NCBI GenBank assembly: GCA_025060325.1
Contig: JANXBW010000033.1
Location: forward strand, 1 to 45,015
Source of the DNA: Thermoguttaceae bacterium
GTDB lineage: Bacteria; Planctomycetota; Planctomycetia; Pirellulales; Thermoguttaceae
Direction of reading: 5' to 3'
DNA: 45,015 bases
The notes below the pieces were generated by a model. The model made no database searches, was not told the DNA's origin, and worked only from the letters and a program-made list of their open reading frames with translations. Below, piece after piece: positions 2,334-25,575 of the stretch (the first letter of the stretch is position 1; the number at the start of each line of letters is the position of its first letter). A program made the translations under genes and the position numbers.

Positions 2334-2793
2334 CCCTGTTCCTCCCAAAGGAATGCCAGGTCTAACCTACCCACGAGCACGATCAAAAAGGGACGCCTCA
2401 CACCTTCCATTGATTCTGGCGGGAAATTCCAAGCAGATCGATAGCCGGCGGTAAGCGGGGGGATTTCTGCCTCGGCGGCCAGCGCTCTGGGGCGGGCAAA
2501 ATCTCAAGGTTCCGAAATGTAGCTGCATGGACCCTTTGCTTCAAGAAGGTGGCAGACCGCCGAGGGGCGAATACTAAGCGAGAAGCTGCTCTAAATCGGC
2601 TGGACCGAGCCCTGAAAACTCATCGACAAGCGGGATTCTGCTCAATTTAACGAGGAGTTGCGTCTACAGTGAGGAGGCCGACAAAAAGCCGATTTGACAC
2701 CTGGGGAATGTCCTCGGAAGATCGCGATCGAGGTGGGGCTTCGAGCACGGCGCGGAAGAGACGAGACCGACCCTTGTGGCAATCCCGAGCGGC
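2334..2793. other. Intergenic region, no gene seen
   Basis: This 460-bp stretch separates two minus-strand genes. It must hold the leader of the glycoside hydrolase gene and the 3' end of the large repeat protein gene. I see no convincing terminator hairpin, and the short open frames here show no recognisable product. Confidence 0.5.
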
Positions 2794-5700
2794 TCATCGG
2801 CGGACCGCACTATTCCGGCCGGACCCAGAAGATGTCGGCTGCTGGGCCACTCGGGGCGTTGGCGAAGCGGGTGTCGGTTGCGCCGTTGCCTTCACAACCG
2901 CAGCTTCCTGAGGCGCCCCTTTGCTAGGCATATTCGAAACAGGGCCGCCTTGACGTGGGCTCATCGCCGGAGTTGGAGGCGATTGATCCGCCCCGGCCAA
3001 CGCCCGTTCCGGTTGGCTCCTGGGTGCCCCGGGCTGATAAAAGGGGGTAACGTCTTGAGCCACCAACCGCGTCGGTAATTCCGCCGAGTAGAGCTCCACC
3101 CGGCAGGCGTGAGTTCCCGCAGTCTCCGCCCGGGCAATTACTCGGAGTGTCTTCACCTCCCCAGGAGCAATCGGCCCAACTCGACCAAAAATAACTTGGC
3201 CGGGAGCAATCAGGGACGGAGCACCCTCAGCGGCAACCGGCTCAATGCCCCAGGAAAAGAAAACTGCCACCTCCCACTGGTCGATGGTCTTCGTGCCGCG
3301 GTTTTCCACGCGAATTTCGTACGGCACGTCCGTCCCGACAGGGCTCGGAGCTCCCGGGTCACGCAGGGCCAATTCAAGCCGGGCAAACCCTTGCACATCC
3401 GGATTTGCTAAGGCTTTCGCCTCCCACGGCCCTGAGGCCGCCACCGCCGAGCAGGCAAGTTGACCCACCTCTCGTGCGCGAACGCTTAAAGTCAAAAGCT
3501 TTTCCTGGCCTGGGCCGATCGAGCCTACTTTCCAAACGAGGTCGCCGGATCCTGCCTCCCGTTCAACTTGGGGAGGTAGTTCCTGGATTTCAGCCGAGCT
3601 AGGCAGCTGCAGGCGAACGACAGTGTCCTGTGCCGGGGCGTCCCCTTGGTTGCTGAGCACCAAGGTCGCCTCAACCTCCGTGCCCACCAAGATGGTGGTG
3701 GGGACCTGCCAGCGGAGCGCAAGCCGCGGCTCCCGGACCATTAGCCGTTCGCTAAATTGGCCCTGGAATCCCCCCTGGGCGACAGCTTGGCAGGCAAGTG
3801 TCATCGCCCCCGCACGTAGGGCGGTCAACTCCACAAGAACGGTCTTCTCTTCACCCACGTCCACACGGGAAAGAAGCACTGAAGCGGGCGAAAGATCGCC
3901 CGCCCCTTCCAAAGAAAATCGAAGCTGAACATTCTCTGCCGGAGCCGTCCCACGGTTGGCGATCCGGACCTCCACCGGCTGCCGGACCCTGCCTACCACA
4001 TCCCGGGAACTAGCCAGGCGAACCTCCAGCCGGGGCTCCTGAACCTCGATTAACGCCCGACTTTCCGCCGGCCGATGAGACCAGCTTACCGCCAGGTTAA
4101 GTGACTCACTCCGCCGCGGCAAAAGTTGAACCTCAAGCCGCTCCTTCTTCCCCGGCTCAAAACGTCCAATTTCCCAGTAAAGCTGCCGGACCTCCCCCGG
4201 GCCGTTTGCTCCGCCTGCGCTTGCCGCTCGGACCTGCCCAACACTTGGCTTTGAAGAAGCTAACTCAACCCAGCCGGGCAGGGTAACTTCCAGCACGAAG
4301 CTTTCGGCTGCTTCTCTGCCAGCGTTGTGAACGACTATCTCGTAGCGGGCCACCTGCCCAGTGAGCACCCGCTCCGGTCCGAAGGCCTCCACCTCAACCA
4401 CCGGACCTTGACGCACAAGAAGTGCCCGCGAGCTGACTTCAGTCCCGGCCGGTTTGCCCTCCGCCGAGCGAGGTTGAGAATCGGCCGGCTCAGCAATTGG
4501 ATTAGGCCGGTCCGGAGCGACCGCTCGGGATTCTTGAGTGGTCACCAGCTGAGTTGCAGGGGGTTCCCTCTGGGGAACGCTTGCCGCTGGCGAACTTGAC
4601 GGAGCTGCCGGAGGCTCGGCTGCCTCCTGAACCGCCCCGCTGGCGTCAGCCTTTAATTCCTGGGGAGCAGGTGTCGGTTCTCGGGCGCTTAGCGGCTCCT
4701 CCGCCGGGGGCGCAACTTCTTGAGCGGGCGTTGGCTGTGAACTTAGTGTCCGAGCCGGCGGATTCTCCCCTACCACTGCCCGCCCAGGTTCATCCTCGCG
4801 GGCTGGCACCCAAGTATCTGCCCTCGGGCCCTGTGGAGGCGAAGCCTCAACTTGGGGAACTGGCTTCGAGGCGGCGGATGGAGCCGGGGTGCTCCCTTCA
4901 ACATCAGCCACGGGAGCGCTTCCCTGTGCGGAGGTCACCTGCGGCTTTCCAAACGGCGAACTCACCAGCTCCTCAATTCGCCGGTGAATGCCCGTGGTGT
5001 TTGGGGCGGTAGAAGACGGCGACAGCGGTGGTGCGGAAAATTTTGCGGCTGGATCGCGCGGCACTTCCCACGGCAGCCCCAAAGTGCTCCCCGAGCGCGG
5101 TATTTCCCCGGGCGAAACCGCTGCCTCGCGAGTGCCCCCAACCTCCCGCGCGTTCTGATCGCCATCTTCGGCGGCCTGCGGTAAGCCGGGCTCCGGGGGA
5201 AGGGTAAGTGCCGACTCCGACTCAGAGGCCGACTTGGGTGCCGGAGTGCGGGTGGAAGACCTACCGGAGTCTAACCTTTCCGTAGCGGGGATGTTTGCGG
5301 CAGGGGGTGACCAGGCCTCCCCGGCAAGTGGATCAGGGCGCTCGCCCAGCTCACGAGGAGTGACATCGATCGGCGGTGAGGGCCTAGAGCCGGCGTTCTC
5401 CCGCGGCGGAGCGGCCGTGCCCAGCCCTAACACGTTATCGAGCCAGCTTCGCCCCGTGCCCCGAGGGTCCTCCTGACCCACTCCATTACCGGCGGTAGAT
5501 CCCCGCGCCCGCGAAGGCGGAGGAAGGATTCCCCCCAACAATCCCTGAGATGGTTGTCCTTGTGGTGGCGCCGGTCGGCGTGCCTGTGGCGGCTGCGGAC
5601 GATGATGACGGTGGGGCATAGGAGAACGGGGAGCAGTGGAGGCTCGAGGTGTGCCACTAGTCCCCGGCCGGGAAACGGCGCCCGGACGTCTTGGAGAGCT

Positions 5701-6027: not shown

Positions 6028-7002
6028 AAGCGGCTCCCCGCAAAAAAAGACCTGACAGTTTACTTCGCTTGGGTTATCGGCACAGTCAGAAAATTCCGAT
6101 TAATCAAACTGAAAAGCTTATCCCGATTAGACGGGCCCATAAGGCGGGGAAAATCTGTAGGGGGCTTTCCTATCACCCTGCGCCAAAGTCGCGCTCGGGA
6201 CTGGCAAGGAAAAGCACACCTCACCAAGGGGGGATTGTTGCGGTTCTCTCGGCGAAAGTGGAACACACGTTCTGTCATCGCCAGGCTACCCAGATCTTGT
6301 TGCCGCCCGAAAGGTTCCCAGTTTTCCCGGTCTTTGAGATTCGCCCGCAATTTCGCCCCGGATCACCCGACGTACGCATCGCCGAACACCCGGGCGCGTG
6401 CCCACCGCAACTGCAAGAAGCACCACTAAAGCAAGAATTTCGCCGCGCCCCTTGTTGAGAACGACGGAGGCCGCCGGTGGGCGTCCGTCGGAGCACTCCG
6501 AAGACGGGAGTCGGTGAGTTCTCCTCTTATCGAGCTGCCAATCGCGGGCGGCGCCTGACTGGCAACACTTCCGAGGCGGACGGGAATCCGGTGAGGGGCC
6601 GGCAATCAGCTAGGGACAAGGACAAGAATCGGCGGAAGTCCGAGAAAACCGATGGCAACAAATTCGCCAACTAATCAATCGAGAAGGAATGGGGCCCGCC
6701 TGCCAGCAAGACTTCCGATGTCGCCGGTGAAATTCAGAGGGCGAGGTCTCACGGCGGCCTTTTTTCGCCGGAGTGGCAACCGCTTGGTGCAGGACGAGGC
6801 ACCCCAGTGGGAAATACCTTCGCGGTGCCGACTTTTAAGGGCGTCTCGGCAGATTAGCTCGGTCAGTGGGGAAAGCACTTAGAAGGTCCAGTGACCCTCG
6901 CCACTAACTCGAGTACCATGCGGTGCCTAATTCGCAACCAATTGGGAAGCAGCACAACCGCCTGAGCGACCAATTTCCTAATGTATCCCGAAAAACGTCA
7001 TC
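6028..7002. other. Intergenic region of about 1 kb, no gene seen
   Basis: Short open frames on both strands have no recognisable motifs and no good ribosome binding sites. A run of seven A at 6042-6048 lies just upstream of the ribosome binding site of the gene starting at 6027. An inverted repeat CGGCG/CGCCG flanks six T at about 6754-6772, but the T run sits in the loop, so it is not a normal terminator. Confidence 0.45.
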
Positions 7003-8280
7003 TCATCCCAGCTTCACCCGGGGGGTCACGTGAGGTGTGCCGTCGTAACGGATTTCAACCGGTATGCCGCTATTCATAATCGAGATCCGGGCGGCCTCGG
7101 TGACAAGCTCGTTGATGTAGCTATTGGCGGGGGTGGCCAGCAACCCCTTGTCGTCGATTTCTTTAAGAACCCGCCGGCGGGCCTGAAGGCTATCCTCCGG
7201 CGCTAATCCCGCCCCAGCTAAGTTGACCTTCAAAGCGGCTTCCACGATGGCGGCGATCGATTCGTAGCCGTAACCGACTGGCTTGAGTCCCTCGCCTTCC
7301 CACGGAACTAAGCGGAAATAGTCCGGACTGACGAATCGGTAAGGCGCGCCGGAAAGGTTGTCGATATACCCATGGCCAACACCGCGGTATTGGTCATCGT
7401 GCTTGATGATCCCGGCCCGATTCGGCCCTTCGCAGTACATCACCAGGCACTGGTCGTTGGTGCCGGGGGCTTCATCCGGATAGCCCAACCCATCTAAAAC
7501 CGAAAGGATGGCCCCATTTTCCCAAACCACCCGGCCGGCCGACCACAAAAAGCCGACGTTCCCGTTGGGAAAAGTCCCTTCCACGCCCCTTACGGAGACC
7601 TCCACCGGACGAAGCCCAGTGATAAAGTAGACAAGATCCACGTAGTGACAGCCGACGTAAGTAAACGGATCGGCATTTTCCTTGGTAAACCAATTCTGAA
7701 AATTGGAATGCCGATAGTAATACGGTTCGATCATTTTGGCCTCGCCCAGCCGGAACTGTCCGAAGCGACCCCGGCGATATTGCAGTCGCGCTTCCAGTGC
7801 CCGGCGATCAAATCGCTTGTGATACTCCACCGCCACCAAGAGTCCACGCCGATAAGCCTCCTCGGCGATTTCGTGCGCTTCCCGGTAAGTACGTACTAGC
7901 GGTTTGACGCAGAGAACATGCTGATTGTGCTCCAAGGCGGCCCGGATAATCGGTGCGTGGACATGGTCCGGCACTGCAACCACAACCAGCTGGCGCTCTT
8001 TTTGCTCCGCTAGCACCTGCCGGTAAAGCTCCGGCTGAGTGACTTCCGGCGGGGTTTCAAGCGGCGGGTAGGGAATAAAGCCTTGGTCCGGGAAGGCTTC
8101 GCGAAGAACGGGGCTTTCCACTAGTGCCCGCAGGGGGCCCGACCGCATTTCGCAGATCTTAATCGGGCCGACCAACCCTAGACGCTGGAGGTGATAAAGG
8201 GAGGGCAGAATTTGGTCGTGGACGATCATCCCCCCGCCAACGATCAGAACATCAACCCGACCCAAGGCCATGGCGGTCAT
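7003..8280 (-). CDS. Gfo/Idh/MocA family oxidoreductase
   Basis: An NAD(P)-dependent sugar or inositol dehydrogenase-type protein of about 425 residues with no signal peptide, so cytoplasmic. VLIVGGGMIV near the N-terminus is the dinucleotide-binding loop. CVKPLVRTYREAHEI is the family's conserved Lys-Pro segment, and VEYHKRFDRRAL with the later GCHYVDLVYF form the substrate-binding half. I chose the ATG at 8280 because GGGAGA lies 6 nt upstream. A longer frame begins with TTG at 8325 but has no ribosome binding site. It lies 300 bp downstream of an aminotransferase gene on the same strand. The two might act together on an amino-sugar or keto-sugar, but that is only inferred from position. 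Confidence 0.88.
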   Translation of the reverse strand: MTAMALGRVDVLIVGGGMIVHDQILPSLYHLQRLGLVGPIKICEMRSGPLRALVESPVLREAFPDQGFIPYPPLETPPEVTQPELYRQVLAEQKERQLVVVAVPDHVHAPIIRAALEHNQHVLCVKPLVRTYREAHEIAEEAYRRGLLVAVEYHKRFDRRALEARLQYRRGRFGQFRLGEAKMIEPYYYRHSNFQNWFTKENADPFTYVGCHYVDLVYFITGLRPVEVSVRGVEGTFPNGNVGFLWSAGRVVWENGAILSVLDGLGYPDEAPGTNDQCLVMYCEGPNRAGIIKHDDQYRGVGHGYIDNLSGAPYRFVSPDYFRLVPWEGEGLKPVGYGYESIAAIVEAALKVNLAGAGLAPEDSLQARRRVLKEIDDKGLLATPANSYINELVTEAARISIMNSGIPVEIRYDGTPHVTPRVKLG

Positions 8281-14900: not shown

Positions 14901-14978
14901 CTGGCTTTTTGCCTTCACTGTCCCATTGGGCTTGGGTAGTGCGTGGAAGTAGAGGAGCTTGGCTTAAGGAGGATTCCC

Positions 14979-16244
14979 ATGTCCGGAAATTGGGGATTTG
15001 GCGGGGAAGATAGCGTCAAGCGGCGAGAGTTCTTGCATCTTGCCACCGGCGCAACTCTTACAGGTCTTAGCGCTTGGCAGAGCCAGTCGCTCCTAGCCCA
15101 GACAAGCCAAGCCGGAAAAGATCAGCCTCCCAGAGGCCGCACCGTGAAGCTCGGGCTTGTTGGCGCAGGGGGCCGGGGCCGCTGGATTGCCCGACTGTTT
15201 CAAAGCCATGGGGGCTTTCGGCTAATGGCGCTGGCCGACTTCTTTCCGGAGGTGGCCAATCAGGCCGGGGAAGAGTTCGGCGTGGATAAAAGTTTGCGTT
15301 TTGCCGGCCTTAAGGGGTACCGAAAAGTCCTCGACAGTGGCGTGGAAGCAGTGGTGCTGCAAACGCCGCCATGCTTTTTCCCGGAATTTGCCCAAGCGGC
15401 AATCGAGGCCGGTGTTCATGTATACATGGCCAAGCCCGTGGCGGTGGATGTCCCCGGTTGTCAAGCCATTGCCCAAGCCGGCCGTCAAGCGACGGCCAAG
15501 AATCTGGTCTTTCTTGTCGACTACCAGATGCCCACCGACCCGGTGATGCAAAGGGTGGCGGATTTCGTCCGCTCAGGCCAGCTAGGCCCACTTGCCCGAG
15601 TGAGCACGGCGGGCGCAAGCGGCGGTCATGCGGATCCACCTCGAGGCAAAACCATAGCCAGCCGACTCCGCGATTTGATTTGGACAAACGATATTGCCCT
15701 CGGGGGCGGCTCGATTATTTCCTACGACATTCATGCCTTTGATGTGGCAGTGTGGGTTCTCAATCGGATTCCCATGGCCGCCATCGGCTCCTGCCGAATT
15801 ATTCGCCCGGAACCCCGCGGCGGGGATAATCCTGACGTTTATTCGGTCGTTTACGAATACGAAGACGGTCTCCTTCATGATCACTGGAGCCAGCACTTGC
15901 CTAACCGGACGCCGTCCGAGCTGAGTCTGCGAGTGTTCTCTTATTCGGGCCGAGCGTGGATGAATTATTACACCGCGGCCGGTTATGAGATCCGCGGCAA
16001 AGAGCAGTTCGAGGAGTCGGTACAGAGCGTCCACGACGCCGGGGCCGCTCGCAATATTGCCGAGTTCTATCGTCGAATCCTCGAAGGCCCTTACGACAAT
16101 CCCACCGTCCAGCGCGGGGTGATGGGCTGTCTGGCGGCGATCCTCGGTCGGGAAGCTTGCTTGCGAAATCGCCGGGTGACCATGGCCGAGCTTATCGCAG
16201 AAAACCGGAAACTCCCCCTAGATCTGACCGGGCTTGAAGAATAG
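14979..16244 (+). CDS. Tat-exported Gfo/Idh/MocA family oxidoreductase
   Basis: The ATG at 14979 has a perfect AAGGAGG 6 nt upstream, which decides the start over an in-frame GTG at 14943. The 421-residue product has a twin-arginine signal (VKRREFLHLATGATLTGLSA, cut near LLAQ), so it is exported folded with its cofactor. VKLGLVGAGGRGRWIARLF is the NAD(P)-binding loop and MAKPVAVDVPGC the family's conserved Lys-Pro segment. The C-terminal half (GGSIISYDIHAFDVAVW) is the substrate domain. Such exported dehydrogenase-like proteins are greatly expanded in planctomycetes and are thought to act on sugars. It follows the SNF2 gene by 78 bp but is probably functionally unrelated. Confidence 0.9.
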   Translation: MSGNWGFGGEDSVKRREFLHLATGATLTGLSAWQSQSLLAQTSQAGKDQPPRGRTVKLGLVGAGGRGRWIARLFQSHGGFRLMALADFFPEVANQAGEEFGVDKSLRFAGLKGYRKVLDSGVEAVVLQTPPCFFPEFAQAAIEAGVHVYMAKPVAVDVPGCQAIAQAGRQATAKNLVFLVDYQMPTDPVMQRVADFVRSGQLGPLARVSTAGASGGHADPPRGKTIASRLRDLIWTNDIALGGGSIISYDIHAFDVAVWVLNRIPMAAIGSCRIIRPEPRGGDNPDVYSVVYEYEDGLLHDHWSQHLPNRTPSELSLRVFSYSGRAWMNYYTAAGYEIRGKEQFEESVQSVHDAGAARNIAEFYRRILEGPYDNPTVQRGVMGCLAAILGREACLRNRRVTMAELIAENRKLPLDLTGLEE

Positions 16245-16446: not shown

Positions 16447-17499
16447 TCACCCGGCAGCTTGAAGGCCGAGCATCACGATATTTAGACCTGAACCAATTCC
16501 CATAAGGGCCACGCGTGCCCCAGGGCGGACAAGTCCCCGCTCCATCGCGATGGCTGCGGTAAGGGGAAGTGCCACTGCCCCCGTGTTTCCAAAGTATTCA
16601 AACGTGGTGAAATCTCGCTCAGGTCGCAGGCCGAGCGCCTCTAGAAGCGCCTTGCGATGGGCCTTTCCCACCTGATGACAAAGGGTGAGATCGATTTCGT
16701 CAACTCGCCAGCCGAGTTCCATAAGAAACTGCGGAAAAGCATCCTGAGCGGCGGCGATCCCAGCACACAGGAGGTTGTCGGAATCGGTCCACATGAAGGG
16801 CCGCATTCGATCGCCGCCGGCATCATCCGGGGTGCCATGGCAGAGCTTAACGGAGCGGGTATCCGACCAGACCAACCCGCCCAAAAGTCGGTGACCCTGT
16901 CGACTTAGTTCCCGCCGCACCAGAAGGATGGCGGCACTAGCGGAGCCGATCGTGAGGGAGGCAGTGGCCTGTTTGAGAAGCTCACGGGAAAGGGGCTCGG
17001 CCCGATTTAGTTCGGCGATGGTGTTTTCAATCAAGCAGCGGCTCGACTCTGTCCCCACCACTAGCCCGGCCTCAATTTGGCCTAGCTCGATCATATTGGC
17101 CACGGTCACTACGCCGTCCATGAGGCCCAAACAGGCATTGGAAATGTCAAACACCAAGCAACGCGAAGGAAGCCCCAATCGGGCGTGCACTAAGGAGGCG
17201 GAGGCCGGCTCGATGTAATCCCGGCTCACCGACCCGTGAATGAGTGCCCCGATCTTCTCGGGTGGGAAATTCGCTTGGCGAAGGGCATCGGCGGCAGTGG
17301 CGGCGCTTACCTCGCTGGGCATCGTACCGCGAGGCCAAAGCCGTCGCTCCACAACGCCGGTCATTAGCTCCAGCCGGCCTTCAGCCAGCCGCAAGCGGCG
17401 ATACACCGGCTCCAAACGGCGCTCAATCTCTTCCGAGCTTAACCGCTCTTCGGGAACACGGTAGGCCAGCGCTTCAACACAGACCGATTGATAACGCAT
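16447..17499 (-). CDS. OleA-like thiolase (3-oxoacyl-ACP synthase III family)
   Basis: A 350-residue thiolase-fold condensing enzyme. FDISNACLGLMDG has the nucleophile Cys123, LCHQVG has His275 and YFGNTG has Asn305, the Cys-His-Asn triad of FabH-type enzymes. SVSRDYIEP contains Glu97, matching the VSRDYLEP segment of Xanthomonas OleA, whose Glu117 reaches into the partner active site. The ending ALMGIGSGLNIVML also resembles OleA more than FabH. OleA joins two fatty acyl chains head to head into a beta-keto acid for long-chain olefins. OleB, OleC and OleD genes are absent from this window, so the product may instead be a ketone, or the partners lie elsewhere. No strong ribosome binding site precedes the ATG. 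Confidence 0.88.
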   Translation of the reverse strand: MRYQSVCVEALAYRVPEERLSSEEIERRLEPVYRRLRLAEGRLELMTGVVERRLWPRGTMPSEVSAATAADALRQANFPPEKIGALIHGSVSRDYIEPASASLVHARLGLPSRCLVFDISNACLGLMDGVVTVANMIELGQIEAGLVVGTESSRCLIENTIAELNRAEPLSRELLKQATASLTIGSASAAILLVRRELSRQGHRLLGGLVWSDTRSVKLCHGTPDDAGGDRMRPFMWTDSDNLLCAGIAAAQDAFPQFLMELGWRVDEIDLTLCHQVGKAHRKALLEALGLRPERDFTTFEYFGNTGAVALPLTAAIAMERGLVRPGARVALMGIGSGLNIVMLGLQAAG

Positions 17500-18207: not shown

Positions 18208-18750
18208 TTAGTGCCCGACCCCACACGCACCGGCAGACCCGTGGTGGGAAACAGCCGGCTTCGGCGGTAGGATCACAGCGTCAATGACGTGAATGATCCC
18301 GTTTGAGGCCCGAATGTCCGTCTGGATGACCCTCGCACCCGAGACGCGGACGCCCTCATTGGAGACCTCAATCCGAATCGGGGAACCTTGCACTGACTTT
18401 AGCTCCTTGGTTTTGACTACCTTGGCGGCCGGATACTCGCCAGCCACCACGTGGTAAGTCAGCACAGCGGTCAGCTCGGCCTTGTTCTGGAGCAGCTTCT
18501 CTAGCGTGCCGGCAGGCAACTTGGCGAAGGCCTCATCAGTCGGCGCGAAGACCGTAAATGGTCCCTTGCCCTTGAGAGTCTCCACCAGACCGGCGGCCTG
18601 AAGCGCCTTGGCCAACGTCGTGAACTTCCCAGCTGCTACGGCCGTGTCCACGATGTCCTTGGGAGCCTGCTCCTGAGCACGGGCAGGCCCGGCCAGCAAA
18701 ACCAAGCACGCCACTACCACGAGAGACCCGGCAAACCACGTGTGACGCAT
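18208..18750 (-). CDS. Exported fasciclin (FAS1)-domain protein
   Basis: The ATG at 18750 has GGAGGT 6 nt upstream, which decides the start over a frame open to 18963. The 180-residue product has a clear signal peptide cut near ARA-QE. One FAS1 domain follows: [13 protein letters not shown], then [25 protein letters not shown] (H1 region), the YHVVAGEY motif and [14 protein letters not shown] (H2 region). The length is typical of single-domain bacterial fasciclins. It probably acts in the periplasm or at the surface in adhesion or matrix binding, and its ligand is unknown. The C-terminus [12 protein letters not shown] is rich in His and Gly and has one Cys, perhaps a metal site. A strong promoter lies about 105 bp upstream. 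Confidence 0.93.
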
Positions 18751-18856
18751 CGACAGACCTCCTTTGAAAAAGGTGGACCTGACACTCCTGGCGGGCCACC
18801 GCAGCCCACCAACCCTTTTGAGCTTTTCGCTCAATCCGTTCAAATCGTTCACCCGA

Positions 18857-18885
18857 ATCTTATCACCCCCGGGCAATAGTGTCAA
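18857..18885 (-). promoter_or_regulatory. Sigma-70 promoter of the fasciclin gene
   Basis: On the minus strand TTGACA (18880-18885) is separated by exactly 17 bp from TAAGAT (18857-18862). An A/T-rich block (AAAAATTTTTT) lies just upstream of the -35 box, like an UP element. The transcript would start near 18850 with a leader of about 100 nt. Confidence 0.75.
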
Positions 18886-19127
18886 GTCCCTCCGACAAAA
18901 AATTTTTCTCGGCTCTCCTCCGCCTTCGCTGGTCGATCGAAACCCCGTCAAACCTAGCAGCACGCTCCGCGCCTAGTGCTTTCGTACGTCCTTGCATAAG
19001 TTTTTGCTATGTAGAGGATTAGGATGAAAAGACGAGAGCAATTCCGCCCGGTTATTGCGCGCGGAGCCAGTAGAGAACCGCTATTGGGGGCTGTCGCCTA
19101 ACGCAGATAAGTATTTCGACAAAAAAC

Positions 19128-19156: not shown

Positions 19157-19177
19157 AAGTTTGGAAGGGCACAAATC

Positions 19178-19190
19178 GACCAAAGCGGTC
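19178..19190 (+). promoter_or_regulatory. Possible operator in the MerR gene leader
   Basis: The inverted repeat GACC-aaagc-GGTC lies between the predicted transcription start and the ATG. It could bind the encoded regulator (autorepression) or hide the start region. The evidence is only position and symmetry. Confidence 0.3.
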
Positions 19191-19197
19191 AATTCCA

Positions 19198-20097
19198 ATG
19201 TTTGTTACCCCACGGCAACTTGCTCAGGCAACCGGTCTTAGTGAATCGACGATTAAACGCTGGTGTGATCGGGGCCTACTGCCGTCCCAGCGGACTCCCG
19301 GCGGCCATCGGCGACTAAAACTGGCCGAAGTGGTAGCCATCCTTCGCAGCCGGTCAGTCCCGGTAGTGGATGCTCTGGCACTGGGACTCCCTCCTTTCGA
19401 AGAGCTAGCCCGCGACGGGCTTGCCGGGGCTCGGCAGGCTCTCCTTGACGCCCTCATCCACGCTGACCGACACCGGGTCAATGCCATCCTGCATGCTCTT
19501 GTGCTTGGCGGGATCTCTATCGCGACTATCGGCGACGCGGTGATTTCCCCCGTCTTTGCCCAAATCGGGGAGTGGTGGGCCTGTCGGGAGATTGAGGTCT
19601 TCCAGGAGAGAGAGGCCTGCCTTATAGCCGAGGAAGCCCTCCGGGAGCTGAAACACTTCTTTCCGCCACCGGCACTAGGAGCGCCCCTAGGCATCGGGGG
19701 CACTTTGACCGGCGATTGGTATATCCTGCCGGGACTCCTTGTGGAACTTGTGCTTATGGCTCACCGTTGGGAGGCACGCTTCCTCGGGACTAATCTGCCG
19801 GCCCACACCTGCGCAGAGGCCATCCGGCGAATCCGGCCGGAGCTTTTCTGGCTGTCCCTTTCTCACGTGGCCAGCGCCGAGGAGGTCGTCGAGGCCACAA
19901 AACAATTAGCGGAAGTGGCCCAGGATGTTCACACCCTAGTCGTAGTGGGCGGTCGAGAGCTGGCAGGCGAGCTGGAGAGTCGAATCTTCGCCTCGGCCTG
20001 CTGCCGAAATCTAGCCCAGCTTGAGCTTCTGCTTCGAACCTTGCCGATTACCGGCAGACGTTCGGCCGAGCCACCGAACATTAAGCCTCCCACTTAA
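19198..20097 (+). CDS. MerR-type regulator with degenerate B12-binding domain (CarH-like architecture)
   Basis: A 299-residue protein. Residues 1-50 are a MerR-type winged helix (TPRQLAQATGLSESTIKRWCDRG, then RTPGGHRRL). Residues about 65-155 match the four-helix cap and about 160-285 the Rossmann-like fold of cobalamin-binding regulators such as CarH and LitR. In CarH the cap has Wx9EH and the B12 domain (D/E)xHxxG. Here these read W127-x9-E137-R138 and D173-W-Y175-I-L-P178, so both histidines are replaced and the lower axial ligand is missing. LSLSHV and VVVGGREL of the Rossmann fold are kept. It may sense another ligand or a base-off cobalamin, or act as a constitutive repressor. No ribosome binding site is visible and the leader is about 35 nt. 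Targets could include this gene or its neighbours. Confidence 0.88.
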   Translation: MFVTPRQLAQATGLSESTIKRWCDRGLLPSQRTPGGHRRLKLAEVVAILRSRSVPVVDALALGLPPFEELARDGLAGARQALLDALIHADRHRVNAILHALVLGGISIATIGDAVISPVFAQIGEWWACREIEVFQEREACLIAEEALRELKHFFPPPALGAPLGIGGTLTGDWYILPGLLVELVLMAHRWEARFLGTNLPAHTCAEAIRRIRPELFWLSLSHVASAEEVVEATKQLAEVAQDVHTLVVVGGRELAGELESRIFASACCRNLAQLELLLRTLPITGRRSAEPPNIKPPT

Positions 20098-20170: not shown

Positions 20171-21757
20171 TTATCTGCCTTCCCCGGTCAGTCGGAAGAA
20201 GCGATCAAGAACCACAAGCCCTACCAGATCGCCAAAGACGTTGACAAGTGTTCGGCAACGGTCAAGAAGCCAATCAATCGCCAAAATAAGTCCGAGGCCC
20301 TCTGCCGGCACGTTGACAGCAGCCAGAACCAAAAGAAGCGTCACCAGCCCAGCATTAGGAATTCCCGGCGCACCGATCGCTGCCAAGGTCGCCATGATAA
20401 AGACGATTACTAGCTCGGCCGACCCCAGGTGGATGCCCGCAAGTTGGGCTAGGAAAATGGCGGCTACGGCCTCGTAGAGAGCCGTTCCGTCCATGTTGAC
20501 AGTCGCCCCCAGTGGTAAGACAAACCGAGCAAGTGGCAAGGAGAGCCCCAGTCTTTGTCCACACTCCAAACTGACCGGCAAAGTGGCCGAGGAACTACTT
20601 GTCCCGAAGGCAGTAGCCAGCGCCGGCGCTACTCCCCGGAGGAAGTTCCCCGGCGCTTGGCGACCTAAACTCCAACTCAGGATTGTCAACAAAACAAAGT
20701 GGATGCTTAGGCCAACAACGACGGTAAAGGCAAACGAGCCAAGTCGGACAAGCTCACTTGCCACGGCTGGTGCACCGCCGCGGGAAATCATGTGCCCCGC
20801 TACCAGGCCAAAAAGGCCCACGGGCGCAAATGCCATCACCACTTGAACCATGCGGATCATTAATTCGTTTACTCGCTCGACTAGATCAAGAAGCGGTGTG
20901 GCCGACGGCCCCATGGCAGCAAGGGTCAAGCCCGCAAGAAGCGAAAAGAAGATAATACCCAGCACATTCATTTCGGCAGCAGCGGCAAAGAGGTTACTGG
21001 GCACAAGGCCACTACCGGGCCGATCTGGCCGCCCGCGGAGTACTTCCGCAAGTGTTTCGCCGACATTGGCCCGGCCAACCGCTACCGCCTGACCTCCCAC
21101 CGAGGCATTCGGAACAAGCTCCGTTCCCACGCTCCCTGGGCGGATAAGCTCGACCAACACCATGCCCAAAAGGACGGCCACGGCAGTGGTACTGAGATAG
21201 TAGGCGAAGGCCCCGAAAGCGACTCGCCCTAAGGAGGCTGTCCGTCCCAGTGCCGCCGAGCCACTCATGATGCTTGTAAACACAAGGGGTAAAACGATCA
21301 GGGTAAGGAGCCGAAGGTAAAGTTGCCCACATAACTGGATAAGCTGGCCTGCCACCCGAAGCAGGAAATCCCACGGACGAGGCGACTCAGCCACAAGGGC
21401 GGCCAATCGGGCAATTTCGGCCCGGAGCCACTCCTTATGCTTACGAATCGCCTCGATCTTGGACGACTCGGCAGGGGGATCCTGTGCAAGCCATTTTTCC
21501 ACACGCTCAAGCTCAGCCTCAAGAGCAGCGTGTCGCTCGGCCGGGCCTCCCACAGCCCGCCACAATGCTTCCCCGAACAAAATTCCCACCAAGACCCCGG
21601 CCGCAAGCCCCACGAGTAACCCCCGAAAAGCCGGACCTCGGTAGCGGCTCTGCCCCCGCGGATCGGCGGTGGCCACGCCGGGGGAAAACTGTCCGGCCTC
21701 TCTGCCAGCAAAATGCGCCTGAGAAACAACCCCGCTATTAAAGTCATCACTAGACAT
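20171..21757 (-). CDS. DAACS family dicarboxylate/amino acid:cation symporter
   Basis: A 528-residue multi-helix membrane transporter. FGTSSSSATLPVSLECG is the serine-rich HP1 hairpin and LGATVNMDGTALYEA the NMDGT motif of TM7, both diagnostic of the GltP/DctA/GltPh family. IGAPGIPNAGLVTLL is the HP2 hairpin. These proteins import glutamate, aspartate or C4-dicarboxylates with Na+ or H+. Two features are odd. A 40-residue polar N-terminus precedes TM1, and an extra charged helical segment (residues about 72-128, rich in Glu, Arg and Lys) lies between TM1 and TM2, where GltPh has only a short loop. That insert would face outside. The gene converges on the MerR-type gene with a 73-bp gap. Confidence 0.92.
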   Translation of the reverse strand: MSSDDFNSGVVSQAHFAGREAGQFSPGVATADPRGQSRYRGPAFRGLLVGLAAGVLVGILFGEALWRAVGGPAERHAALEAELERVEKWLAQDPPAESSKIEAIRKHKEWLRAEIARLAALVAESPRPWDFLLRVAGQLIQLCGQLYLRLLTLIVLPLVFTSIMSGSAALGRTASLGRVAFGAFAYYLSTTAVAVLLGMVLVELIRPGSVGTELVPNASVGGQAVAVGRANVGETLAEVLRGRPDRPGSGLVPSNLFAAAAEMNVLGIIFFSLLAGLTLAAMGPSATPLLDLVERVNELMIRMVQVVMAFAPVGLFGLVAGHMISRGGAPAVASELVRLGSFAFTVVVGLSIHFVLLTILSWSLGRQAPGNFLRGVAPALATAFGTSSSSATLPVSLECGQRLGLSLPLARFVLPLGATVNMDGTALYEAVAAIFLAQLAGIHLGSAELVIVFIMATLAAIGAPGIPNAGLVTLLLVLAAVNVPAEGLGLILAIDWLLDRCRTLVNVFGDLVGLVVLDRFFRLTGEGR

Positions 21758-22675: not shown

Positions 22676-23083
22676 ATGTCGTTCGCGGCCAAGACCCAGC
22701 GCTATCACGTGGTTGACTTTGACCAAGTTCCAGGGATACGGTGCCCCTGCGGAATTGCCCGCCGCGCCTTGGCCGACGTTGATTTCTTTCCGGGAACCAT
22801 CCACAGGACCGAGTTTACGGGCACCGGCAAGCGACATTATCACCGCCGACTTACCGAGACCTATTACATCCTTGAAGCGGAACCTGGAGCTTACTTGGAA
22901 CTTGACGGGGAACTTATCCCGGCCAAGGTTGGCCTTTGCGTCGTTATTCCCCCGGGGGTGGTGCACCGCGGCATCGGGCGGATGACCGTGCTCAACATCG
23001 TTTTCCCCAAATTCGATCCCACGGACGAGTTTTTAGTTGATGAAACTTCTCCGTCCCCAGCGCAACAATCCGATCGGAGTTAA
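22676..23083 (+). CDS. Small cupin-domain protein
   Basis: A 135-residue single-cupin protein. HYHRRLTETYYILE matches cupin motif 1 (His, His, Glu metal ligands) and VVIPPGVVHRGIG matches motif 2 (Pro, Gly, His), so a mononuclear metal site is likely. It has no signal peptide and is cytoplasmic. Such proteins range from isomerases to sensors and no substrate can be assigned. GGAG lies about 9 nt before the ATG. Only 20 bp separate it from the NuoE-NuoF fusion gene, so it may be the first gene of that operon and could have a regulatory or cofactor role there, which is speculative. Confidence 0.85.
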   Translation: MSFAAKTQRYHVVDFDQVPGIRCPCGIARRALADVDFFPGTIHRTEFTGTGKRHYHRRLTETYYILEAEPGAYLELDGELIPAKVGLCVVIPPGVVHRGIGRMTVLNIVFPKFDPTDEFLVDETSPSPAQQSDRS

Positions 23084-23103: not shown

Positions 23104-25575
23104 GTGGTGAAACGTAGCGAAGCAATGGCCTGGAGTAAGCAAGCTGCCCCGGCAAACGAGCCTTTCAGTCACTCTGAGCCCACCCCGGACGACCTGGCCT
23201 ACGTGGACCAGCTAGTGGCTCAATACGGGGCCGACCCGGAGGCTGCCATCCCCCTGCTCCAGGCCCTTCACAACCAGTATCGATATCTCCCCCAGTGGGC
23301 ACTGGAACGCATTTGTCAACAAACAGGCATAAGTCCTGCCCAGATTTGGGGCGTGGCCACTTTTTATTCGCAATTCCGGCTCTCCCCGGTGGGTAAACAT
23401 CTTGTCCAGGTGTGCCACGGGACAGCCTGCCATGCGGGAGGCGCTTGGCTTGTCCAGCAGGCGTTTGAGCACTATCTTGGCATACCGCCGGGCAGTGATA
23501 CTGATCCAGCCCGCCTGTTTACAATTGAGAAGATAGCCTGCCTTGGCTGCTGCAGTTTGGCCCCAGTGGTGCGGATTGACGATGTTATTTACGGTCATCT
23601 CTCACCCGCCCGGGTTCCACAGATCTTACGCGACTTTCTTCGCCACCGCCGGAGCCAAGCCGGCCTAGATGACGATCTGCCGCGGCATCAACCGGCCGAC
23701 TCCCAGGCGGAACTGCGGGTCGGGCTTGACAGTTGCTGTCGTGCCCAAGGGCATGATCGGCTTTACCAGTCGCTAGTGGCAGCTGCCCGAAAGCTTCGGC
23801 TGCCCGTTACGATTAAGCGGGTGGGCTGTAGCGGACTTTGTCACCAAGCACCGGCAGTTGAAGTAGCTGTAGACAAAAAGCGGCTTTTCTATCTTGGGGT
23901 CACTCCGTCGGCTGCTGAGCGGCTAGTCCAACACCGCTTTCCCCCTCGCCCCTGGTGGCGCCGGATCAGCACTCGTGCTCAAAACTTGATCCGTTGGCTG
24001 TGGGAAGAAGATCATCTGCCGCAGGCTTATCCGGCCCAATCGCCCCGGCTTGCGCCTTTCCTCGGCAGCCAATTGCGGATTGCCACCGAGCACGCCGGCG
24101 AGCTTGATCCGCTGGATCTTGACGAATATATCCGTAGCGGCGGTTTGTCGGCCCTTCGGCGGGCAATTTTCCAAATGACGCCGCAGGAGATTATCAACGA
24201 GATTACTGCCAGTGGTCTTCGCGGTCGCGGCGGAGCTGGCTTCCCAACCGGAAAAAAGTGGGCGATTGTAGCTGCTCAGTCCGCCCAGCCTAAATTCGTC
24301 ATTTGTAATGGTGACGAAGGCGACCCCGGGGCCTTTATGGACCGCACCATCCTGGAGTCTTTTCCCTTCCGGGTGATCGAGGGGATGGCCATTGCCGCTG
24401 TGGCCACCGGTTGTCGCCAGGGCTTCTTTTACATCCGCGCGGAATACCCACTAGCTGTGCGGCGAATTCGCCGGGCTTTGGAGATTTGTCGACAGGCGGG
24501 GATCATTGGCCCAAGCATCCTGGGAAGCCAGTACGAGCTTCAGATCTCCGTCCGCGAAGGGGCTGGGGCATTTGTCTGCGGGGAGGAAACGGCCCTGATA
24601 GCCTCGCTTGAAGGCAAACGGGGGATGCCCCGGTTTCGCCCGCCTTTTCCCGCGGAAAGCGGCTATCATGACCTGCCTACTTTGATCAACAATGTGGAGA
24701 CCTTTGCCTGCGTACCGTGGATCATTCGCCATGGGGCAAAGGCTTTCGCCTCGGTGGGAACTGCCACCAGTAAAGGCACCAAGGTTTTTGCCCTGGCGGG
24801 CAAGATCCGCCGGGGCGGTTTGATCGAAGTGCCCATGGGTATGACCCTGCGGCAGATCGTGGAGGATATTGGTGGCGGTGTTCCCCAAGGGCGAACTCTT
24901 AAAGCCGTTCAAGTAGGCGGGCCCTCCGGCGGTTGTCTGCCTGCACATCTCCTAGATCTTCCTGTGGACTATGAGGCCCTCACCCATGCCGGGGCTATCA
25001 TGGGCTCTGGCGGCATGGTGGTGTTCGACGATACCGACTGCATGGTGGATGTCGCCCGCTATTTCTTGAGCTTCACCCAAAGCCAATCATGCGGAAAGTG
25101 TACATTTTGCCGGCTGGGTACCCGGCGGATGCTGGAGATCCTGGAGGCCATTTGCCTCGGCCAAGGCCAGCCACGTGACCTGGAAGAATTGGAAACTTTA
25201 GCCCAGTCCATAAGCCAGGCAAGCTTGTGCGGTTTAGGGAAGACGGCCCCAAACCCTGTGCTTTCCACGTTACGGTATTTCCGGGAAGAGTATGAGGAGC
25301 ATCTTGCCGGCCGATGTCCCGCCCGACGCTGCAAGGCGCTCATCCGCTATGTCATTACCGAGCGGTGCCTTGGCTGTACACTTTGTGCCCAGCATTGCCC
25401 TGCCCGGTGTATTCCGCTGACACCTTACCGGCGGCATCGGATTGACCAGTCAGCCTGCACGCGGTGCGACACCTGCCGAGAGATTTGTCCAGTGGGGGCG
25501 GTGGAAATCCAAACAGGCCCCCCGGAAACGGCCGCCACCCCCGCGGCAGCAGGCAACGCAACGGGACCTACTTAA
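23104..25575 (+). CDS. NuoE-NuoF-ferredoxin fusion, NADH-oxidising subunit of a hydrogenase/Bfu-type complex
   Basis: An 823-residue fusion. Residues about 25-185 are NuoE-like with Cys in CHGTAC and CLGCC for a [2Fe-2S] cluster. Residues about 200-275 are a second thioredoxin-like ferredoxin (DSCCRAQG, VGCSGLCH). Residues about 310-735 are NuoF: GLRGRGGAGFPTGKKW binds NADH/FMN and SCGKCTFCR with CGLGK binds a [4Fe-4S]. CLGCTLCAQHC and CTRCDTCREIC (about 754-795) form a 2x[4Fe-4S] ferredoxin tail. The order matches HydB/HndC subunits of NAD-linked [FeFe] hydrogenases and other bifurcating Bfu enzymes, here with NuoE fused in front. The start is GTG at 23104 with AGGA 10 nt upstream. An ATG at 23125 lacks a site. 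The partner gene is 20 bp downstream. Confidence 0.92.
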   Translation: MVKRSEAMAWSKQAAPANEPFSHSEPTPDDLAYVDQLVAQYGADPEAAIPLLQALHNQYRYLPQWALERICQQTGISPAQIWGVATFYSQFRLSPVGKHLVQVCHGTACHAGGAWLVQQAFEHYLGIPPGSDTDPARLFTIEKIACLGCCSLAPVVRIDDVIYGHLSPARVPQILRDFLRHRRSQAGLDDDLPRHQPADSQAELRVGLDSCCRAQGHDRLYQSLVAAARKLRLPVTIKRVGCSGLCHQAPAVEVAVDKKRLFYLGVTPSAAERLVQHRFPPRPWWRRISTRAQNLIRWLWEEDHLPQAYPAQSPRLAPFLGSQLRIATEHAGELDPLDLDEYIRSGGLSALRRAIFQMTPQEIINEITASGLRGRGGAGFPTGKKWAIVAAQSAQPKFVICNGDEGDPGAFMDRTILESFPFRVIEGMAIAAVATGCRQGFFYIRAEYPLAVRRIRRALEICRQAGIIGPSILGSQYELQISVREGAGAFVCGEETALIASLEGKRGMPRFRPPFPAESGYHDLPTLINNVETFACVPWIIRHGAKAFASVGTATSKGTKVFALAGKIRRGGLIEVPMGMTLRQIVEDIGGGVPQGRTLKAVQVGGPSGGCLPAHLLDLPVDYEALTHAGAIMGSGGMVVFDDTDCMVDVARYFLSFTQSQSCGKCTFCRLGTRRMLEILEAICLGQGQPRDLEELETLAQSISQASLCGLGKTAPNPVLSTLRYFREEYEEHLAGRCPARRCKALIRYVITERCLGCTLCAQHCPARCIPLTPYRRHRIDQSACTRCDTCREICPVGAVEIQTGPPETAATPAAAGNATGPT

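Follow-up and report, generated by a model that had tools for sequence, protein, structure and literature searches.

A planctomycete CarH-like regulator with a rebuilt B12-type cleft and a predicted 9-bp direct-repeat operator

Introduction

CarH is the model for B12-based light sensing. Class I CarH/LitR proteins combine a MerR-type helix-turn-helix (HTH), a four-helix cap, and a B12-type Rossmann fold. The lower axial histidine lies in a motif published as D/ExHx2G/P (PMC9304148). It is needed for AdoCbl binding in Thermus CarH, where H177A led to the loss of both AdoCbl binding and tetramer formation; H193A abolished the function of M. xanthus CarH (PMC4557120). The histidine of the Wx9EH motif serves as a cap over the adenosyl group and does not coordinate cobalt, and the upper ligand in the light state of Thermus CarH is H132, beside the Trp (PMC8156234, PMC4557120). 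CtMerR, the MerR protein of Chloracidobacterium thermophilum, binds AdoCbl and loses its tetramer in the light. Four light-signature elements were described for it (GxxW, GxxxP, EH, and GxxH), and a B12 domain with Arg at the place of the lower His bound hydroxocobalamin alone (PMC11796333).

Light regulons of related proteins are linked with photolyase genes, namely phrB for Pseudomonas class II LitR (PMC9758184) and phr for a Vibrio MerR protein (PMC5241685). The RpoE singlet-oxygen regulon of Rhodobacter includes the strongly induced fasciclin gene RSP_1409 (PMC7074977). BldC binds 9-bp direct repeats, AATTCGGAC, of the form AAWTCGnnC (PMC5859096). The openly licensed literature that we searched describes no planctomycete CarH-type regulator and names no family of the present kind, and the restriction to open licences makes this absence weak evidence. 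Here, we analyze a CarH-like regulator gene in a 45,015-nucleotide stretch of Thermoguttaceae DNA, referred to as the window.

Results

The regulator gene is located at positions 19198–20097 of the forward strand (ATG at 19198, stop codon ending at 20097) and encodes 299 residues. A sequence-only reading had reported this frame with the motifs W127-x9-E137-R138 and D173-x-Y175-x-x-P178. Direct inspection reproduced all of these, the second motif in full being D173-W-Y175-I-L-P178, along with the retained S220xS222 and G251G252. The proposed order of HTH, four-helix cap, and Rossmann-like B12 fold was likewise borne out. HTH_17/MerR and B12-binding_2 exceeded their Pfam cut-offs, B12-binding (PF02310) stayed below its own (27.3 versus 32.1 bits), and the NCBIfam CarH equivalog NF052513 gave 47.4 bits against a cut-off of 400. 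The AlphaFold2 model, calculated from a 23-member alignment (mean pLDDT 92.3, pTM 0.84), displayed an HTH, a four-helix bundle, and a Rossmann-like fold, in line with the class I architecture. The BldC-type HTH spans residues 1–51 approximately, the cap 67–154, and the B12-fold domain 164–281. CtMerR (8jbs) was the top structural match of the model (Z 26.4, rmsd 2.1, 221 residues), and further matches were photocobilins (Z 22.6–24.6), Thermus CarH (Z 20.0), and the AppA SCHIC domain (Z 19.8). In a profile comparison, the HTH resembled 6ama (E = 4e-9), which, like 6amk, we take to be a BldC chain. A search of the own genome gave one strong match, the gene itself.

At the lower axial position, the regulator has Tyr175 instead of His. 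The earlier statement that both B12-ligand histidines were replaced is correct for this residue; the other one, which is Arg138 here while W127 and E137 of Wx9EH are kept, corresponds to the adenosyl-capping His and not to a cobalt ligand. Ala128 occupies the position of H132, and therefore all three pocket histidines of Thermus CarH (132, 142, and 177) are missing. Pro178 had been listed as a further deviation. It is not part of the change, because the published motif permits Pro and one photocobilin reads ExHxxP, and this rules it out as a mark of lost B12 binding. The SxT/V...GG tail motif is present, with Ser at position 222 instead of Thr or Val. As for the CtMerR signature, GxxW and GxxxP are intact, EH keeps its Glu, and GxxH has Tyr for His.

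Homologues were found in 131 of 396 genomes of the order (E ≤ 1e-20) and in 76 of 392 genomes sampled across the phylum (E ≤ 1e-15). From these matches, 113 were aligned, comprising the best-scoring ones and regions selected by hand. Residues 138/175 were R/Y in 75 proteins, H/Y in 18, H/H in 7, and other pairs in 13. Tyr at the lower-ligand position is thus common to 93 of the 113 homologues, which rules out an isolated mutation or a sequencing error. Judged by this alignment, the Tyr set is a conserved, phylum-wide subfamily. The suggested Tyr/Pro/Arg grouping holds for Tyr175 and, in 75 proteins, for Arg138 as well, and its Pro is ordinary.

The tree was calculated for 109 sequences (the 113 homologues minus 7, plus 3 PDB relatives). 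It contained a planctomycete clade of 100 sequences with a support of 0.984 and CtMerR as its sister, and H/H proteins were basal to both. Of the seven H/H proteins, six fall outside the clade. Two come from Myxococcota (L031 and L032), one from a Candidatus Sulfopaludibacter MAG (L033), and three (L020, L021, and L139) from planctomycete genomes, but these three are on branches other than the planctomycete clade. The check for close homologues with intact histidines, proposed with the sequence-only reading, returned a single His/His protein (L107) among the 107 clade members. Some deep nodes within the clade had low support, 0.0 in one case. On the simplest reading, the lower His would have been lost at the base of the clade and His138 would have changed to Arg in one branch, with a nested reversion to His138 in L019, L053, and L123. 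Outgroup searches yielded one weak match in a plasmid collection and three distant relatives in genome contigs.

L107 (7139–8035) has both histidines and keeps Trp218, the operator described below, and SRPBCC-epimerase and photolyase neighbours. Tyr175 would not be required for the system, because this His/His protein retains W218 and the operator, and L107 is a natural reference with which to compare ligand tests. Five other proteins (L018, L122, L124, L126, and L128) make up a paralogous branch that combines R138 with either Ala or Ser at 175 and has Cys or Leu at 218; in G114 and G138, such a paralogue and a Tyr-type copy are no more than about 15 kb apart. G441 (L108) has a pair of neighbouring H/Y copies, one on each strand, at 6537–7415 (+) and 6715–7572 (−, reverse-strand coordinates). 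G548 (L079) has tandem homologues at 1492–2415 and 2597–3460, the second being degenerate (R138/D175, lacking Trp127).

Conservation was measured over the 75 R/Y proteins, which have a mean identity of 44%. The most conserved C-terminal positions were W218, W127, Y175, P201, W191, R138, P214, and E137, followed by glycines 252, 251, 197, 167, and 124. W218 is a second linked change, absent from the sequence-only reading. Trp was found here in 99 of the 107 clade members, and Gly, Ala, Cys, or Val in the six outside-clade H/H proteins, CtMerR, Thermus CarH, and a photocobilin. At this position, motif context assigns Gly, Ala, and Gly to three further B12-domain proteins encoded in the own genome. 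W218 sits two residues ahead of the first Ser of SxS and, because of this spacing, strand geometry suggests that it should face the cobalamin-tail pocket. The linked substitution lends some support to the earlier idea of a changed ligand. The coupling of Tyr175 and W218 is loose, since L107 and several other non-Tyr members retain W218. By these residue patterns, the cleft is strongly constrained yet rebuilt.

A dyad scan of the 250 bp upstream of the 113 genes found CAAA-N-CGTT at 58 of them, against about 2 expected from four shuffles. Refinement gave taAAAWT CGTTCAAAW CGTTCAHWT, an operator of 9-bp direct repeats, AAAWTCGTTCAAAWCGTTCA. Sites were called at ≥14 bits within 300 bp upstream. 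By this measure, 81 of the 113 homologues had a site and 32 had none, and none was seen in 312 kb of control DNA. The operator was found upstream of 59 of 75 R/Y and 16 of 18 H/Y genes (75 of the 93 Tyr-bearing members), one of 7 H/H genes (L107), and none of the five R/A and R/S paralogues.

The window contains exactly two sites at ≥14 bits. One copy, CACAAATCGACCAAAGCGGTCAATT, consists of 9-bp direct repeats at 19170–19194 (+) and ends 3 bp ahead of the regulator ATG (22.1 bits). The other, CTCAATCCGTTCAAATCGTTCACCC, is the top site of the window (26.2 bits) and lies at 18830–18854 (+), in the promoter region of the fasciclin gene that is divergent from the regulator. With a matrix from which the window's gene and four near relatives were held out, the fasciclin copy scored 26.7 bits and the regulator copy 18.6 bits. 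Both exceeded the maxima of 200 simulated windows (mean 8.1, highest 16.0 bits). The repeat unit, AAATCGTTC, matches that of BldC in length and form. The joint presence of a BldC-type HTH and repeats of this form leads us to infer that the regulator binds them. We are highly confident in the predicted operator and in autoregulation through it.

The fasciclin-domain protein is encoded at 18208–18750 (−) and has a signal-peptide-like N-terminus (Fasciclin PF02469, E = 3.5e-43, searched with the longest ORF). Its start is better placed at 18750, where AGGAGGT precedes an ATG, than at the GTG at 18963 of the longest ORF. A sigma-70-type promoter-like site for this gene, TTGACA-N17-(TG)-TAAGAT, was located at 18857–18885 (−) by its consensus match alone (one found, 0.2 expected from shuffles), and the operator copy starts 2 bp past its predicted −10 hexamer. 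Other genes in the window encode a Gfo/Idh oxidoreductase (14943–16244), a ketoacyl-synthase-III-like protein (16447–17499), a dicarboxylate symporter (20171–21757), and a cupin (22676–23083). An 823-aa ORF at 23104–25575 resembles, by eye, a fusion of the NuoE-NuoF type whose C-terminal part is ferredoxin-like.

The neighbourhood was sampled at 61 flanked loci, that is, the window and 60 loci selected from the matches, some of them two per genome. The largest cluster of the first neighbour clustering (24 loci) apparently consisted of antisense ORFs over the regulator and was rejected; non-overlapping ORFs were then chosen for clustering. With family identities taken from single representatives, tblastn recovered a sigma-70 factor at 21 loci, an SRPBCC-epimerase at 16, fasciclin at 13, CFA synthase at 11, an FAD amine oxidase, DUF1295, and DUF1365 at 10 each, photolyase and an SDR-TspO fusion at 8 each, a small uncharacterised protein (c9) at 6, and SOUL at 4. 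In its cluster of 19 loci, the sigma-70 factor gene was next to the regulator and divergently oriented in 18. At least one of the families occurred at 47 of the 61 loci, none at the other 14, and none in 20 control regions taken arbitrarily from 15 of these genomes, a comparison that is partly circular because the families were picked from those 61 loci; the zero among the controls shows merely that they are not everywhere. The set overlaps the light and singlet-oxygen regulons of Rhodobacter RpoE, Pseudomonas LitR, and Vibrio MerR.

The exact 15-mer core of the operator had 67 sites in 55 of 296 genomes, and a reversed control pattern had 12. It was present in 47 of 99 gene-positive versus 8 of 197 gene-negative genomes (Fisher p = 7e-19). 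Twenty regions with distal sites were fetched, the set excluding 8 sites in gene-negative genomes and a contig-end site (G125:C272). One of the twenty, L195, turned out to be a regulator locus, so that 19 remained. In 12 of these, the site lay beside a sigma factor gene (L176, L177, L178, L185, L187, and L191–L194) or a fasciclin gene (L180, L186, and L190). The other seven (L179, L181, L182, L183, L184, L188, and L189) lacked all 11 neighbour families; for L179 and L184, the sites fall inside long ORFs, and the matrix gives no site of ≥16 bits in L183 and L189. In L177, an apparent frame-broken regulator copy at about 4419–4792 lies beside the sigma factor, which retains three operator sites, and the same genome has an intact copy elsewhere.

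In the own genome, a 19-bp pattern with up to 3 mismatches had the fasciclin site as its sole forward match; the reversed control also had one. A linked sigma factor or a further strong operator was not found in this genome, and the regulon here may therefore consist of the regulator and the fasciclin gene. One sigma protein on contig C11 is 37% identical to the operator-linked sigma factor. Its assignment as the linked factor is unsupported, with no site of ≥5 bits in the surrounding 9.5 kb. Its 608-codon frame (L203, 4129–5955) has several HTH-like segments fused to a sigma-70 factor.

The adenosyltransferase PF01923 is encoded in the own genome, in 97 of the 99 gene-positive genomes by tally, and in 264 of 296 genomes of the order, which makes it uninformative as a discriminator. 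PF02572 occurred in 19 of the 296. Two of the 99 gene-positive genomes, G061 (99% complete) and G120 (77%), have neither, and G061 encodes an R/Y protein.

Discussion

With a probability of roughly 0.55, we propose that the regulator is an autoregulated repressor of a photo-oxidative defence regulon, with a CarH-type sensor that no longer operates on His-on AdoCbl. Its BldC-type HTH would bind 9-bp direct repeats head-to-tail, one array lying where transcription of the divergent fasciclin gene is predicted to begin and the second just ahead of the regulator's ATG. Many relatives have this operator at an alternative sigma factor gene as well. A light- or photo-oxidative-stress-linked stimulus may alter the assembly of the C-terminal domain and lift the repression. 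The base-off/His-on AdoCbl of CarH would have been abandoned through rebuilding of the lower corrin face, where Y175 replaces His and W218 a small residue, and, for the R/Y branch, through a changed adenosyl cap, with R138 in place of His. Such a departure from His-on AdoCbl is, in our judgment, very likely. The repressor role and the light or photo-oxidative input are predictions, and a photo-oxidative regulon is likely. Loss of light sensing, which the sequence-only reading had considered, is disfavoured because the neighbours and operator targets match light and singlet-oxygen regulons.

The rebuilt cleft probably still holds a ligand, because it remains strongly constrained; we consider this somewhat likelier than the proposal as a whole. 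The candidates are cobalamin in another mode, another tetrapyrrole, or none, and our expectations are divided among them. Under one alternative, the protein is still an AdoCbl photoreceptor that binds the cofactor without His (five-coordinate or with Tyr near cobalt), and Co–C photolysis relieves repression by altering the cap, with the non-bis-His light states of CtMerR and photocobilins as models. W127, E137, GxxxP, SxS, and GG are all retained, the nearest relative CtMerR is an AdoCbl light receptor, and nearly all gene-positive genomes, including the own, have PF01923. However, the H177A mutant of Thermus CarH and the Arg-bearing domain that took up hydroxocobalamin alone (PMC4557120, PMC11796333) speak against it, W218 probably fills the tail pocket, and the almost complete genome G061 combines an R/Y protein with no PF01923 or PF02572 match. 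We regard this alternative as doubtful. A sensor domain without a small molecule is similarly improbable. It would act in oligomerisation or docking and be induced by a protein partner, as CarA is by CarS and class II LitR by a short LOV protein. Precedents for lost B12 function exist (PMC9304148, PMC9758184), and both the lower and upper histidines are missing; against this, the cleft ranks with the best-conserved parts of the domain despite the divergence of the R/Y proteins, CarA has lost its Trp, and no conserved antirepressor-type partner was conspicuous in the neighbourhood clusters (ORFs of ≥100 aa).

The repeats could also belong to another BldC-like protein, with the regulator gene merely a target. 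BldC-type proteins bind such repeats (PMC5859096), and the 15-mer occurs in gene-negative genomes at close to the reversed-control rate of 12 sites in 296 genomes. This option is very improbable, as the site tracks the gene across genomes, accompanies most Tyr members and none of the Ala/Ser175 paralogues, and the regulator itself has a BldC-like HTH (6ama). Returning to the favoured repressor proposal, its boldest form is that a phylum-wide CarH branch has exchanged its chromophore. A Tyr175/Trp218/Arg138 pocket would hold an anionic tetrapyrrole (such as heme, protoporphyrin, or a bilin). The repressor would in this way respond directly to a photosensitiser, or to the light state of one, and free the sigma-factor/fasciclin regulon from the BldC-type repeats. 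This is speculative, and we think it more probably wrong than either ligand alternative above. An anionic tetrapyrrole would nevertheless be worth testing because the cap has an Arg, a Tyr lies below, and SOUL and TspO genes are among the neighbours.

A phylum-wide His replacement with the cleft kept, in a light-defence setting, would show how the fold switches its chromophore or sensing mode, and planctomycetes gain a predicted regulon with a defined, testable operator. The best relative in fold and sequence is CtMerR (8jbs/8jbt), with a co-linear HTH, cap, and Rossmann fold (profile E = 3.4e-53) and shared GxxW, GxxxP, and the Glu of EH; CtMerR has EH, GxxH, and Cys at 218, whereas the regulator has ER, GxxY, and Trp218. 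CarH and class I LitR of Thermus and Myxococcus share the MerR-type HTH with a B12 fold, a tandem-repeat operator, and light-related targets. The equivalents of His132, His142, and His177 are missing in the regulator, and its repeat unit is 9 bp, whereas that of Thermus CarH is 11 bp. Photocobilins (8j2w, 8j2x, and 8j2y) share the cap and Rossmann fold, and the Pro of ExHxxP is a counterpart of Pro178. Unlike the regulator, they retain the ligand His and Glu-His and possess a globin-like biliverdin domain (PMC10979010); the regulator ends at residue 299, soon after the Rossmann fold, without such a C-terminal domain. Class II LitR and M. xanthus CarA are CarH relatives that regulate light genes without B12 (PMC9758184, PMC9304148). 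Class II LitR retains the four-helix domain alone, whereas the regulator model also has the Rossmann fold, and CarA keeps the B12 motif and EH and has lost the Trp, whereas the regulator keeps both domains and the Trp and has lost both histidines.

BldC is alike in HTH homology and in its 9-bp direct repeats (AAWTCGnnC), but it has 68 residues and no sensor domain (PMC5859096), whereas the regulator carries a C-terminal B12 fold. The AppA SCHIC domain has a common fold and a changed tetrapyrrole, a precedent for ligand exchange; it binds heme via a His shifted by two residues, and its Trp cap is Leu/Arg (PMC9144470). The regulator has no His at 171–179 (TGDWYILPG) and keeps Trp127. The Rhodobacter genes RSP_1090/1091 we take to be a DUF1365 protein and a COG2907-like oxidase. 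Together with a sigma factor, CFA synthase, photolyase, SDR, and the fasciclin gene RSP_1409, they give the RpoE–ChrR system its likeness to the present neighbourhood (PMC7074977). Control is exerted there by an anti-sigma factor, whereas a CarH-like repressor is proposed here. Known types thus account for the fold, the HTH, and the regulon, and what is new is their combination with a phylum-wide Tyr/Trp/Arg pocket.
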